64,000 nt of DNA from positions 288,301 to 352,300 of the forward strand of contig JANINJ010000006.1 in NCBI GenBank assembly GCA_024508855.1, read 5' to 3'. Below are positions 7,585-16,246 of the stretch, piece by piece. The translations under genes and the position numbers were made by a program. This DNA is from Xanthobacteraceae bacterium. Lineage in GTDB: Bacteria > Pseudomonadota > Alphaproteobacteria > Rhizobiales > Xanthobacteraceae. The notes beneath the pieces were generated by a model. It did not search any database and was not told the origin of the DNA. It worked only from the letters and a program-made list of their open reading frames with translations. How positions within the stretch are numbered: position 1 is the stretch's first letter; the number at the start of each line of letters is the position of its first letter.

Positions 7585-7851
7585 ATGTGGTACGTTTACA
7601 TTATTCGCAGCACCAGTTTTCCCGACTAGGATTACACCGGTGCAACTGCCGATCTGAAACGTCGGCTGTCGGACCATAATGGCGGTAAATCGACGCATAC
7701 TGCGAAATTCACGCCATGGAATTTGGCTTGGTATTGTGCCTTCCCGGACAAGCAGCAAGCTCTCGACTTCGAAAAATACTTGAAGTCGCATTCCGGCAGA
7801 GCATTCGCAAAGAAACGCCTCTTATGCTTTAGTCATGATCCTCATCCATAA
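7585..7851 (+). pseudogene. GIY-YIG nuclease-like gene with an in-frame amber stop
   Basis: From ATG 7585 the frame reads MWYVYIIRSTSFPD, meets TAG at 7627-7629, then continues without break as DYTGATADLKRRLSDHNGG ... PWNLAWY ... FEKYLKSHSGRAFAKKRLL to TAA at 7849. YVYII and YTG fit the GIY and YIG positions of small GIY-YIG nucleases (UvrC/URI-like, about 90 aa). A single base change therefore appears to have broken the gene. No other frame restores it. It sits between tRNA-Ala and the CoA-transferase gene. Amber readthrough or a sequencing error are the alternatives. Confidence 0.8.
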
Positions 7852-11562: not shown

Positions 11563-12879
11563 ATGCTCGTTCGACAATTTGGCGCGGCGCTGGCCGCAAC
11601 CCTTGCGCTGGCTCTTGCCACGCCTGCCCACGCCGTAACCGAGATCCAGTGGTGGCACGCCATGACCGGTGGCAACAACGACGTCGTCGTCAAGCTGGCC
11701 AATGATTTCAACGCCTCGCAGAGCGAGTTCAAGGTCGTGCCGACCTACAAGGGCGGCTACGCCGACACCATGAACGCCGGCATCGCTGCATTCCGCGCCG
11801 GCAACGCGCCCGCGATCATGCAGGTGTTCGAAGTCGGCACCGCCACCATGATGGCCGCAAAGGGCGCGGTGAAGCCGGTCTACCAACTCATGAAGGAGAC
11901 CGGCGAGAAATTCGACCCGCAAGCCTACCTGCCGGCGATCACCGGCTATTACTCGACCTCGAAGGGCGAGATGCTGTCGTTCCCCTTCAACTCGTCGTCG
12001 ACGGTGATGTGGATCAATCTCGATGCGCTGAAGAAAGCGAACATCGCCGAGATTCCGAAAACCTGGCCGGAAGTGTTCGACGACGCCAAGAAACTGAAGG
12101 CGGCCGGCTACACCACCTGCGGCTTTTCCAATGCCTGGGTGACCTGGGTCAACCTCGAGCAGTTGTCGGCGTGGCACAACGTGCCGCTGTCGAGCAAGGC
12201 CAACGGCCTCGACGGTTTCGATACCGTGCTGGAATTCAACGGCCCGCTGCAGGTAAAGCATCTCGAAAAGCTGATCGAGCTGCAGAAAGACAAGACCTAC
12301 GATTATTCCGGCCGCACCAATACGGGCGAAGGCCGCTTCACCTCCGGCGAGTGCCCGATCTTCCTCACCTCGTCCGGTTTCTTCGGCAATGTGAAGACGC
12401 AGGCCAAGTTCCACTGGACCAACGCGCCGATGCCCTACTATCCGGACGTCAAGGACGCGCCGCAGAACTCGATCATCGGCGGCGCTTCGCTGTGGGTGAT
12501 GGGCGGCAAGACCCCGGAAGAATACAAGGGCGTCGCAAAATTCCTCGCCTTCCTGTCGGACACCGATCGTCAGGTCGAGATTCACAAAGCGTCGGGCTAT
12601 CTGCCGATCACCAAGGCGGCCTACGAGAAGGCCAAGGCGGAGGGCTTTTACAAGGACCAGCCTTATCTCGAAACGCCGCTGAAGGAACTGACCAACAAGG
12701 AGCCGACCGAGAACTCGCGCGGCCTGCGCCTCGGCAACATGGTGCAACTGCGCGACGTCTGGGCGGAAGAAATCGAGCAAGCGCTCGCCGGCAAGAAAAC
12801 CGCCAAGGAAGCCCTCGACGCCGCCGTCTCGCGCGGCAACGTGATGCTGCGCCAGTTCGAACGGACGGCAGTGAAGTAA
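11563..12879 (+). CDS. ugpB: sn-glycerol-3-phosphate ABC transporter, periplasmic binding protein
   Basis: Binds glycerol-3-phosphate (or glycerophosphodiesters) and hands it to UgpAEC. 438 aa with a signal peptide cleaved after AHA (residue 24), then the UgpB signatures IQWWHAMTGGNND, VVPTYKGGYADTMNAGIAAFRAGNAPAIMQV(F/Y)EVGTATMM in successive segments. GGAGGATCTCG precedes the ATG. It opens the ugpBAEC operon, which here is split by a DUF559 gene 105 bp downstream. Confidence 0.95.
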   Translation: MLVRQFGAALAATLALALATPAHAVTEIQWWHAMTGGNNDVVVKLANDFNASQSEFKVVPTYKGGYADTMNAGIAAFRAGNAPAIMQVFEVGTATMMAAKGAVKPVYQLMKETGEKFDPQAYLPAITGYYSTSKGEMLSFPFNSSSTVMWINLDALKKANIAEIPKTWPEVFDDAKKLKAAGYTTCGFSNAWVTWVNLEQLSAWHNVPLSSKANGLDGFDTVLEFNGPLQVKHLEKLIELQKDKTYDYSGRTNTGEGRFTSGECPIFLTSSGFFGNVKTQAKFHWTNAPMPYYPDVKDAPQNSIIGGASLWVMGGKTPEEYKGVAKFLAFLSDTDRQVEIHKASGYLPITKAAYEKAKAEGFYKDQPYLETPLKELTNKEPTENSRGLRLGNMVQLRDVWAEEIEQALAGKKTAKEALDAAVSRGNVMLRQFERTAVK

Positions 12880-12941
12880 GCGACGACGCTGGGAGCCATG
12901 GACGCTTTTCGATTGCAGTTCGCAAAAGCCGCTCATGCTCC

Positions 12942-12984
12942 CCTCCCCCCGCCCTTGCGGCGGGGAGGGGTCGGGGGTGGGGGG
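12942..12984. repeat. Left 43-bp inverted repeat of the DUF559 cassette
   Basis: GC-rich 43-bp segment that matches the reverse complement of 13336-13378 at 40 of 43 positions (mismatches at repeat positions 12, 20 and 32, counted by eye). Its outer 27 bases also fold on themselves (CCTCCCC...GGGGAGG), so each end is a hairpin. It lies directly before the DUF559 start codon. Confidence 0.9.
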
Positions 12985-13404
12985 ATGCCACGAATGCCTC
13001 GCTCGATTGATCGTCGCGTTCCGCGTGCGCGCAAACTTCGACAAAATCCGACCGACGCCGAACGAAAGCTTTGGCAGCGATTGCGTGCGCTGACCGGCTC
13101 GTCGCATATTCGCCGGCAGGCAACGATCGGACCTTACTTCGCGGACTTTGCCTGTCACACCACTCGAATCGTGATCGAAATCGACGGCGGCCAGCACGCC
13201 GACAGTGCGGCTGATCTTGCGCGAACTGCCTATCTCAATGCTCAAGGTTATCGCGTTCTCAGATTCTGGAACAATGACGTCCTCGACAATATCGATGGCG
13301 TACTCGAAACCATCATCGACGCTCTGCGTGCGTCACCCCCCACCCCTGACCCCTCCCCACCGCAAGAGCGGGGGGAGGCGAACAGCGGCGCCGCGGGGCG
13401 ATAG
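12985..13404 (+). CDS. DUF559 endonuclease-like protein inserted in the ugp operon
   Basis: 139 aa from ATG 12985. The core NPTDAERKLWQRLRAL ... RRQATIGPYFADFAC ... RIVIEIDGGQHAD ... RVLRFWNNDVL is the DUF559/YcjD domain, related to very-short-patch-repair and other PD-(D/E)XK-like nucleases; Asp54, Glu65 and Asp67 are candidate metal ligands. The start was placed after the left repeat because upstream codons only translate the repeat; the last 25 or so residues are likewise translated from the right repeat. It sits in the same direction as ugpBAEC and would be co-transcribed. Biological role not established. Confidence 0.85.
   Translation: MPRMPRSIDRRVPRARKLRQNPTDAERKLWQRLRALTGSSHIRRQATIGPYFADFACHTTRIVIEIDGGQHADSAADLARTAYLNAQGYRVLRFWNNDVLDNIDGVLETIIDALRASPPTPDPSPPQERGEANSGAAGR
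13336..13378. repeat. Right 43-bp inverted repeat of the DUF559 cassette
   Basis: Inverted partner of 12942-12984 (40/43 identical by eye), also with internal dyad symmetry. It encodes the Pro-rich tail of the DUF559 protein and ends 29 bp before ugpA. No target-site duplication was obvious outside the two repeats. Confidence 0.9.
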
Positions 13405-13407
13405 CCG

Positions 13408-14289
13408 ATGCAAAAACAAGCCACCTTCAATTCTCGCTGGCTGCCGTGGCTCCTGATCGCGCCGCAGATGATCGTCGTGCTGGTGTTCTTCTATTGGCCA
13501 GCCGGGCAAGCAGTGCTGCAATCGTTCCTGCTGCAGGATGCGTTCGGGCTCTCCACCACATTCGTCTGGTTCGAAAACTATAAAGAGCTGTTCGCCGACC
13601 CGGATTATTTCGCCACCATCGTGCGCACCTTCGCGTTCGCGTTCGCCATCGCGCTCTCGTCGCTGTCGCTCTCGCTGCTGCTGGCGGTGATGGCCGACAA
13701 GCCGCTGCGCGGCAGCGCCATCTATCGCACGCTGCTGATCTGGCCGTACGCGGTGGCGCCGCCGGTCGCGGGCGTGCTGTGGGTGTTCATGCTCAATCCC
13801 TCGCTCGGCGTACTCGCCCACGGCCTGCGCGCCATGGGCGTCGACTGGAATCCGCTGCTCGACGGCAATCAGGCGGCGGCGCTCATTATCCTCGCGTCTG
13901 CCTGGAAGCAGATTTCCTACAACTTCCTGTTCTTCCTCGCCGGACTGCAGAGCATTCCGAGAAGCGTGCACGAAGCCGCAGCCATCGACGGCGCGCGGCC
14001 GATGCGGCGGTTCTGGACCGTCACCTTCCCGCTGCTGACTCCGACCATCTTCTTCCTGATCGTCGTCAACATCGTCTACGCCTTCTTCGATACCTTCGGC
14101 GTGATCGATACCATGACGCGCGGCGGACCGGCCAAGGCCACCGAAACGCTGGTCTACAAGGTCTATGTCGACGGCCTGCTCGGCGGCAATCTCGGCGGCT
14201 CGGCCGCGCAGTCGGTGATCCTGATGGGTCTCGTCATCGTACTGACCGCGATCCAGTTCCGCTTCGTCGAACGCAAGGTGACGTACTGA
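13408..14289 (+). CDS. ugpA: Glycerol-3-phosphate ABC transporter permease UgpA
   Basis: Inner-membrane permease subunit, 293 aa, six membrane spans of the MalF/UgpA type. The ATPase-contacting EAA loop is seen as [20 protein letters not shown]. It pairs with UgpE in the membrane and with a UgpC dimer on the inner face. Its stop codon overlaps the ugpE start by one base (TGATG). The DUF559 cassette now separates it from ugpB, so its translation and transcript stability may differ from the rest of the operon. Confidence 0.95.
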
Positions 14290-15137
14290 TGGTCGAGCGC
14301 GAAGGCATCCGTCGTTATGTCGCCCACGTCATCCTGTGGGTGGGCATCGCCGTGGTTGCGTTTCCGGTCTATCTGGCGTTCGTCGCCTCGACGCAGGACA
14401 ATGCCGTGATTGCCAACGGCCAGATGTCGCTGCTGCCCGGCAGCCACTTCCTCGAGACTTACTACCGCACAATCTTCGTCGGCACCTCGGGCACCACGCG
14501 CGAGCCGGTCGGCATGATGTTGTTCAACTCGCTGATCATGGCGATGTCGATCGCGCTCGGTAAAATCTTCATCTCAATCCTCTCCGCCTATGCGATCGTG
14601 TTCTTCCGTTTCCCGTTCCGCATGACGGTGTTCTGGATCATCTTCATCACCCTGATGCTGCCGGTGGAAGTGCGCATCTATCCGACCTACAAGATCGCCG
14701 CCGACCTCAACCTGCTGGACAGCTATTCGGGTCTCGCACTGCCGCTGATCGCATCCGCCACCGCGACGCTGCTGTTCCGGCAATTCTTCATGACGGTGCC
14801 GGATGAACTGCTGGAAGCCTCGCGCATCGACGGCGCCGGTCCATTCCGCTTCTTCAAGGATACGCTGCTGCCGCTGTCGCGCACCAACATGGCGGCGCTG
14901 TTCGTGATCCTGTTCATCTATGGCTGGAATCAGTATCTCTGGCCGCTCTTGATCACCACGCGCGACGACATGCAGACGATCCAGGTCGGCATCCGCAAGA
15001 TGATCGTCACCTCCGACGCGCTGACCGAATGGCCGATCGTGATGGCCACCGCGATCCTGGCGATGCTGCCGCCGGTATTCGTGGTGATCGTGATGCAGAA
15101 ACTGTTCGTGCGCGGACTGGTCGAGACGGAGAAGTAG
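14289..15137 (+). CDS. ugpE: Glycerol-3-phosphate ABC transporter permease UgpE
   Basis: Second membrane permease, 282 aa, MalG-like with six spans. The EAA loop reads [20 protein letters not shown]. The start ATG at 14289 overlaps the ugpA stop by one base. ugpC follows after eight bases, so ugpA, ugpE and ugpC form a tight block. Confidence 0.95.
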
Positions 15138-15145
15138 GAATCGAG

Positions 15146-16246
15146 ATGGCGAACGTCACGCTGCGCAATGTCCGCAAGACCTATCCGGGTGGCGTCGAAG
15201 CCATCAAGGGCATCACCTTCGATGTTCCCGACGGACAGTTCTGCGTGCTGGTCGGGCCTTCCGGCTGCGGCAAGTCCACGCTGCTGCGCATGGTCGCCGG
15301 ACTTGAAACCGTCACCTCGGGCGAAATCGATATCGGCGGCCGTGTTGTCAACCAGGTCGAGCCGGCGGATCGCGACATCGCCATGGTGTTCCAGAACTAC
15401 GCGCTCTATCCGCACATGAGCGTCTACAACAACATGGCTTACGGCCTGCGCAATCGCGGCATGGCCAAGCCCGAGATCGACAAGCGCGTGCGCGAAGCCG
15501 CGCAGATTCTCGAGATCGGCCCGATGCTGGAGCGCAAGCCGCGCCAGCTCTCCGGCGGCCAGCGCCAGCGCGTTGCCATGGGCCGCGCCATCGTGCGCCA
15601 GCCGAAAGTGTTCCTTTTCGACGAGCCGCTATCCAATCTCGACGCCAAGCTGCGCATCGCCATGCGGGTCGAAATCCGCAAACTGCAACGCCGGCTCAAC
15701 ACCACCTCGATCTATGTCACCCACGATCAGCTCGAGGCGATGACGCTCGCCGACATCCTGGTGGTGATGAACGGCGGCGTGGTCGAGCAGATCGGCAATC
15801 CACTCGACATCTACCAGAAGCCCGCGACGACCTTCGTCGCCTCCTTCATCGGTGCGCCGCCCATGAACCTGACGCCGCTGCGTGGCGACGAGGCTGGCAT
15901 CCGCTTTACCAGCGGCGGCTCGGTGCCGGCAGGCACTATTCTCGGCGTGCGCCCGGAGGACCTCACGGTCTCGACCGGCGACGCGCCCGAGGGCGGGGTG
16001 AGCTACGATCTTATCGTCGAGGCAATCGAGCGGGTCGGCGCCGAAACCTTCGTCTACGGCTCGCGCAGCGGCGCGAAAGAAGCCGCTGCCGTAAGCGCCA
16101 AACCGGGGGAACTGCCGCCTGGCGAGATCATCGTCCGCATCCCCGGCCAGGCCGCACCCGCCATCGGCGCAGCGATTCGCGCCGTGGCGCCGCGCGACAA
16201 GCTGCATCTGTTTGCCGCCGACGGCCGCAGCCGGATCGATCTTTAA
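15146..16246 (+). CDS. ugpC: Glycerol-3-phosphate ABC transporter ATP-binding protein UgpC
   Basis: Cytoplasmic ATPase of the importer, 366 aa, MalK/UgpC group. Walker [10 protein letters not shown], signature [14 protein letters not shown], Walker [13 protein letters not shown] and the switch histidine (YVTHDQ) are all intact, followed by the C-terminal regulatory (TOBE-type) domain of about 130 aa. The start [16 protein letters not shown] at 15146 was chosen because it begins the ABC domain and lies eight bases after the ugpE stop; frame upstream only overlaps ugpE. Confidence 0.95.

Follow-up and report, generated by a model that had tools for sequence, protein, structure and literature searches.

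The window analysed here is a 64,000-nucleotide stretch of Xanthobacteraceae DNA in which a short DUF559 gene (PD-(D/E)XK, Vsr-like; 12985..13404, + strand) lies within an operon, downstream of a gene for an extracellular solute-binding protein (ugpB-like; 11563..12879, +) and upstream of one for a binding-protein-dependent permease (ugpA-like; 13408..14289, +). A second permease frame (ugpE-like; 14290..15137, +) and an ATPase frame (ugpC-like; 15146..16246, +) follow, both named by eye and with starts set by hand within longer mechanical frames; the names ugpB and ugpA are those of the first-pass annotation and are backed by no profile model in this analysis. The short gene matches Pfam DUF559 (PF04480) with an E-value of 6.7e-35 (119.7 bits versus a curated cut-off of 20.6), its domain spans approximately 13021-13326, and a sub-threshold match to REase_MTES_1575 was the only other Pfam hit on the protein. 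The gene is bounded by inverted repeats: the 43-mers at 12942-12984 and 13336-13378, reported earlier as identical at 40/43 positions, were reproduced at that identity, and the repeat extends to 49 nt (12936..12984 on the + strand versus 13336..13384 on the - strand), 44/49 identical. The gene probably starts at ATG 12985, which directly abuts the left repeat, and the right repeat is translated as the Pro-rich C-terminal tail of the protein (SPPTPDPSPPQERGE), in agreement with the earlier proposal that the repeats supply both the start context and the last codons. The internal dyad symmetry described in the first pass is borne out as well, as both arms fold as hairpins with DNA energies of -16.7 (left) and -14.6 kcal/mol (right); the right arm alone stands out against dinucleotide shuffles (z of -3.3, versus -1.2 for the left arm).

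Each arm consists of a pyrimidine/purine hairpin with, next to it towards the gene, a stretch that mirrors the purine arm (GCGGGGAGGGG, then GGGGTGGGGGG), with the left arm reading CCCCTCCCCCC-loop-GCGGGGAGGGG-TCG-GGGGTGGGGGG and its third strand lying towards the gene. Judged by this layout, the window repeats are potential intrastrand-triplex motifs of the BoxC/PIT/TM kind (hereafter TMs), located at 12940-12984 in the left repeat and, in the right repeat, on the - strand at 13338-13380, where the motif again faces the gene. Repeats of this kind were reportedly treated by Hoyne in 2000. Holder et al. 2015 report the motif in more than 260 genomes and triplex formation in vitro for TM_ECO (PMC4666352). 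The window arms are a variant (CCCCTCCCCCC) of the E. coli TM consensus CCCTCNCCC...GGGNGAGGG...GGGNGAGGG, and the consensus itself is not matched by them; a consensus-like pattern had one match in the window's own genome, on another contig, and the window's own variant had scattered matches in that genome. A degenerate pattern of the repeat (at most 3 mismatches) matched the window twice, at the two arms, and found 0 matches in 100 shuffles, while a scan of all 64 kb on both strands for a hairpin with a mirrored third strand returned exactly two motifs, both facing the DUF559 gene. Chance or local coincidence is excluded as the source of the window repeats by these shuffles, by the window scan and by the displaced flanks described below. 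Across 230 distinct ends, the mirror reading of the third strand fit better than a direct reading in 136, worse in 5 and equally in 89, with the direct reading allowed any offset. Of the 424 A residues in purine arms, 405 stood opposite an A (224) or a T (181) of the third strand, although these third-strand shares are inflated because the detector tolerates at most one mirror mismatch.

Short DUF559 genes beyond the window were examined as the best-scoring matches of each search, with no random draw. The protein-only search of named genomes contributed the best 80 of 569 loci, the family-level search 30 loci (25 usable after 5 cut by contig ends were dropped) and the phylum-level search 29 loci (the top places). 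The sample comprised 149 short DUF559 loci, 145 with at least 100 bp on both sides and 4 without. Of these 145 best-scoring loci, 105 had an inward-facing motif on both sides, 35 on one side and 5 on neither (L123, L142, L156, L164 and L259); with one locus per independent site (n=76), the corresponding numbers were 51, 21 and 4. Comparison therefore establishes that short DUF559 genes are mostly units whose ends read as triplex motifs, and the first-pass question of whether DUF559 genes elsewhere have the repeats is answered positively for most of the short ones, not for all. Within the genus, 15/15 strong short DUF559 genes (E of 4e-32 or better) had inward motifs on both sides, with end sequences varying between lineages. 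DUF559 in general as the bearer of such ends is excluded for the genus, where 8/8 long DUF559 proteins had no motifs. The phylum sample (n=29) was weaker, with motifs on both sides at 12 loci, on one side at 16 and on neither at one. Twenty-six records, mostly MAG contigs, were not titled Alphaproteobacteria; 23 of them could be judged, of which 15 had motifs on both sides, 7 on one side and one, titled only 'Bacterium', on neither. Motifs on both sides were present, among others, in a Helicobacter isolate and in MAG contigs whose titles give Chloroflexota, Omnitrophota, WOR-3 and Doudnabacteria. Where both sides carried a motif, the median distance between its inner edge and the domain was 33 bp on the upstream and 16 bp on the downstream side. 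Eight further DUF559 loci, taken from annotated records, conformed to the pattern less closely: inward motifs were present on both sides in Sinorhizobium CP090106, on one side in two (Azospirillum NC_016623 and E. coli KE47) and on neither in five (Deinococcus NZ_CP026518 and NC_015170, Synechocystis CP101716, Pseudomonas NZ_CP137508 and E. coli H240). Deinococcus NC_015170 (L192) and Synechocystis CP101716 (L194) have motifs on both sides that face outwards, indicating that the pairing, though not the inward rule, also holds in those phyla. Among 116 loci, outward motifs on both sides were found at 11 and inward motifs on both sides at 93.

Paired inward motifs were found at 0/116 loci after shuffling of the flanks and at 0/109 loci when flanks displaced by 600 bp were used. 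Three other gene families served as controls. GIY-YIG genes of the same bacterial family were represented by 30 loci; among the 29 whose flanks were complete, one had the triplex motif, on one side. Vsr genes of the class (25 of 29 loci taken, 21 with full flanks) had it at 0/21 within 300 bp, with one one-sided case within 500 bp. For Y1_Tnp genes, 20 TM-bearing genomes were considered, and the 12 in which such genes occurred gave 31 matches. Of these, 25 were examined and none had the motif within 900 bp; the other six were three short fragments, two additional identical copies in G253 and one match that had no locus. Two of the 25 Y1_Tnp loci ran into a contig end and were free of motifs throughout, and of the 23 full loci, 6 were flanked by GTAGGAGCG palindromes, as expected for RAYT genes. 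Matched ends were also seen when upstream flanks were compared with reverse-complemented downstream flanks in a motif-free manner, with the duplicate records among the 145 (L069=L129 and L082=L098) removed: a score of at least 18 was reached at 100/134 DUF559 loci, compared to 0/134 displaced flanks, 59/402 mismatched partners and 0/21 Vsr loci. Repeats flanking any gene whatsoever are excluded for 800 kb of the G146 chromosome and for the three control families (GIY-YIG, Vsr and Y1_Tnp).

The protein search also reached E. coli, where the gene is ycjD, located between sapF and fabI; at least 80% of the 701-bp query was present in 3309/5426 genomes. YcjD was placed among PD-(D/E)XK members already in 2005 (PMC1189080). 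No TM of its own was detected at ycjD in K-12, where TM_ECO no. 9 of Holder's table (1351204-1351239) lies 167 bp past the end of the gene and faces away, and strain KE47 has kept an inward TM at the ycjD stop. Together, no. 9 and the inward TM of KE47 suggest that ycjD is a decayed member, a case that re-scoring of the K-12 and annotated-record loci weakened. A different hairpin, with arms of approximately 20 bp, lies just before the E. coli ycjD start (L185, 2930-2980), where the left TM would be expected. In three E. coli strains lacking ycjD, that place is occupied by a multidrug efflux region, identified in PMC12817139 as the eef operon, and those strains therefore do not represent simple empty sites. 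Holder et al. state in PMC4666352 that mobility activities were never found near TM_ECO sites and that doublets always consist of one type A and one type B motif; if doublets derive from the left and right ends of one unit, this pairing would be explained.

TMs also occur in numbers without the gene. A stretch of 800 kb from a single chromosome (G146) contained 37 TMs (17 and 20 on the two strands), which formed 12 adjacent inward pairs, while a single-base shuffle of the same 800 kb still contained 3 motifs on one strand versus the 17 observed. Seven of the inward pairs were doublets 15-27 bp apart, three were more than 2 kb apart, and the remaining two, of 325 and 349 bp, were both at the known DUF559 genes there; two outward TM pairs less than 2 kb apart were also present. 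In G096, 8 distinct facing gene-less doublets were found among 18 loci, with gaps of 64-148 bp and ends like those of the local DUF559 unit, and this unit with its flanks had 84 matches in G096 (a count that includes the query and hits to either strand of a single place) versus 8 in a sister genome. The nine doublets read in G328 all had a 78-bp gap, and two of the nine have common flanks. Some of the G328 doublets (L322-L330), as well as L193 of CP090106, lie inside a further inverted repeat (CTGTCCGGGGAAAA-like), and in G328 this outer repeat resembles an IS end or the sequence adjoining ISRm16 in CP090106, so an IS may have spread some of these doublets (nested or IS-borne). The first-pass annotation had regarded repeats occurring mostly without the gene as evidence against its reading, and gene-less copies do prevail; REPINs do likewise.

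Of 200 Pseudomonadota genomes, tallied by hand, 38 contained a consensus-like TM pattern, 45 a strong DUF559 match (E below 1e-20) and 26 both. A strong DUF559 match was found in 26/38 TM-positive genomes versus 19/162 TM-negative genomes (Fisher 5e-12, uncorrected for kinship). Taken over all comparisons, the association of DUF559 with TMs in Proteobacteria is solid. Twelve of the 38 TM-positive genomes had no strong DUF559, and TM-rich genomes of this type include G302 (130 copies; 87% complete), G218 (54), G322 (46; 69% complete), G197 (37) and G360 (27). One of the twelve, G045, contains a broken DUF559 (G045:C4:353065-353371; split frame, one stop) with a TM just after it, and still has 16 consensus-like TM copies. 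REPtrons too are said to be absent from some species (PMC3733652). It is possible that some other enzyme spreads the TMs and that DUF559 is a passenger, caught between two TMs and kept for a use of its own, as the TM-rich genomes without strong DUF559 and the position of G328 doublets partly inside IS-like ends might suggest. However, in the 800 kb examined, inward TMs separated by less than 2 kb enclosed no other gene, and GIY-YIG, Vsr and Y1_Tnp genes are not bounded by TMs; we consider a passenger role quite unlikely.

At the ugp site itself, the DUF559 gene is present in 6 of 8 genus genomes, and the other two (G001 and G007) have a solo hairpin that looks like two outer arms joined together. 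The gene is not at this junction in all relatives; its presence there in all of them was what the first pass had named as contradicting its reading. In the tree, G007 falls inside a supported carrier clade (96/94), with most other forks lacking support; because G007 is nested among carriers, gene loss is likely there, and at least one of the two gene-less ugp sites probably arose through loss. The six ugp orthologues have dN/dS values of 0.09-0.20 over 15 pairs, indicating purifying selection, and the window's own copy is old, with mostly vertical inheritance. The original interpretation is supported in part: the suggestion of a mobile cassette at ugp finds no support in this copy, given its occurrence at the same site in 6/8 genus genomes, its low dN/dS and the solo hairpins otherwise; the accompanying likeness to REP/RAYT elements stands, as paired ends are family-wide beyond the genus and gene-less doublets are dispersed. 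In a cousin genus (G019), the ugpB-ugpA junction contains a facing doublet of another triplex variant (L033), which suggests that the junction has been hit more than once. The same junction in another genus (G014) contains a palindromic repeat of the GTCATGCCCGGGCTTGACCCGGGCAT kind (L034).

Close relatives mostly carry the DUF559 gene at the same site, which indicates that it seldom moves. Two units in G096 are 93.6% identical over 455 bp, lie 35 kb apart and have unrelated flanks; the identity begins approximately 20 bp beyond the left motif and stops 2 bp past the right motif, and no target duplication was seen by eye at the two sites. Between two Omnitrophota units, identity is 75.7% over 404 bp and the flanks are dissimilar. 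When plasmids were searched at the DNA level with the window element, 2 partial matches were obtained. The end variant tracks the protein lineage and not the host genome (0.89 versus 0.35); this is weak support, given that same-lineage pairs mostly represent orthologous sites. The first pass had proposed looking for empty sites and target duplications; clean cases were sought at L165/L166, L193, L196/nirK and a G328 doublet, and none was found. Movement of a DUF559 unit was not observed in the genomes compared.

An AlphaFold2 model of the window protein was built from 46 sequences (mean pLDDT 86.7), and its best Foldseek match was the Neisseria structure 3hrl (E 6e-7). The catalytic domain of the homing endonuclease I-Bth0305I (3r3p, E 5.2e-5) was second, and mitoribosomal proteins and PvuRTs1I ranked between 3r3p and Vsr (1cw0, E 0.02), so the DUF559 nuclease fold is Vsr/homing-endonuclease-like by prediction. 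The DUF559 alignment has 15 invariant columns, which include E65, D67, H71, D77 and R80, and the Vsr model TIGR00632 scores the window protein at 16 bits, below its cut-off of 97.85. One potential explanation is that a solo palindrome is the target and that the unit spreads only via break repair into existing hairpins, duplicating the palindrome in the process. The second-best predicted fold match to a homing endonuclease, the solo hairpin that G001 and G007 have at the ugp site, and a hairpin matching the element's end that adjoins nirK in two Azospirillum relatives are all consistent with such homing, but loss explains the solo hairpin of G007 equally well given its place within the carrier clade, and gene-less doublets could not spread through homing of the gene alone, making this the kind of account that we regard as improbable. 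Alternatively, DUF559 may be a Vsr-like repair nuclease acting at TMs or mismatches, with the end TMs serving as terminator, attenuator or self-regulatory sites rather than as transposon ends. The predicted Vsr-like fold and the purifying selection on the gene agree with a role in repair, and in Caulobacter the SOS response upon cytosine methylase loss depends on VsrA, a DUF559 protein (PMC12907096). Regulation alone, however, leaves unexplained the inward left end, the near-identical ends, the gene-less doublets and the second G096 copy, and earlier work, as summarised in PMC4666352, detected neither promoter nor terminator activity in PIT elements; we therefore judge repair or regulation to be an unlikely explanation.

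We infer that mobilisation of TMs by DUF559 is the best explanation for these observations. The reading that the nuclease propagates TMs, with widespread units composed of a small DUF559 gene and two facing potential triplex motifs behaving in a RAYT/REPIN-like manner, appears slightly better than an even bet (a probability of about 0.55). The DUF559 nuclease would recognise the hairpin or triplex of its own TM, most easily when the TM is single-stranded behind the fork or extruded, and would nick or cut at that place; host repair synthesis might then copy TM units elsewhere, mostly as gene-less doublets and seldom with the gene. Alternatively, repair synthesis may be primed from the cut into a homologous hairpin, in a homing-like manner. 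The gene would resemble RAYT genes in having few copies, being mostly vertically inherited and being kept by selection, while the repeats would be what spreads. Loss of the gene could leave a solo hairpin, as in the two ugp genomes, which would fit pairing between near-identical palindromes. If this reading is true, the origin of the BoxC/PIT/TM repeats becomes testable, the large DUF559 family gains a role, and the mobile partnership that the units would represent may use a non-B DNA structure as its signal.

Short GIY-YIG nuclease genes are also often found between matched inverted palindromes (for example L355, L362 and L365). Across GIY-YIG loci L346-L375, matched inverted ends with a score of at least 18 were found at 17/29, compared to 0/29 displaced and 3/87 mismatched flanks. 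Several of these ends are CGTC-tagged palindromes (CGTCATTGCCGGGCTTGTCCCGGCAATCCA at L355, with a similar one at L365), and other GIY-YIG ends are of another kind (CATCCTGAGGAG...CTCGAAGGATG). The window also contains a GIY-YIG frame with one internal TAG stop at 7585-7800, with no matched palindromes beside it. Together with the DUF559 case, the GIY-YIG observation suggests that partnerships of a repeat and a nuclease arose several times. A more tentative extension, to which we give somewhat less than even odds, is that two orphan repeat superfamilies each have a dedicated nuclease propagator (DUF559 for BoxC/PIT, and GIY-YIG for CGTC REPs and their kin); with RAYT and GTAG REPs, these would make up a single general type of genomic partnership between a nuclease and a structured DNA repeat, arrived at three times with three unrelated folds, and the DUF559 signal would be the triplex. 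In the open-licence PMC literature, where papers naming either subject were covered mostly by title and abstract, no link of DUF559 or ycjD to triplex repeats was found, and in the part of that literature covered, no link of GIY-YIG to CGTC repeats was found. Literature on Rhizobium mosaic elements and a survey of REPs contributed no further information.

Compared to known systems, the DUF559 unit has several partial counterparts. The Vsr mismatch endonuclease is alike in its predicted PD-(D/E)XK fold (1cw0, E 0.02), but the Vsr model scores the window protein far below the cut-off and Vsr genes have no TM ends (0/21 within 300 bp). The catalytic domain of I-Bth0305I (PDB 3r3p) is alike in predicted fold, with a TM-score of 0.75 on the target, whereas the window gene has repeats at both ends and sits among the genes of an operon. 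The CGTC-tagged REPs of Di Nocera 2013, described in PMC3733652 as a palindromic superfamily common in alphaproteobacteria and with no transposase association, are a different repeat, and palindromes of this type flank GIY-YIG genes here, not DUF559 genes. The BoxC/PIT/TM repeats have the same hairpin with a mirrored third strand, occur as single and inverted-doublet copies and are present in many genomes; they are described in PMC4666352 as orphans with no mobility gene near them, whereas here they form the ends of DUF559 genes at most of the loci examined. RAYT/REPIN systems (REPtrons) are alike at the level of the family, with a small nuclease gene between inverted palindromic repeats and gene-less doublets elsewhere, but the RAYT enzyme is a tyrosine transposase (Y1_Tnp) while the DUF559 unit has a PD-(D/E)XK fold, and RAYT-associated repeats have a GTAG tag while the window arms have no GTAG and carry a third strand.
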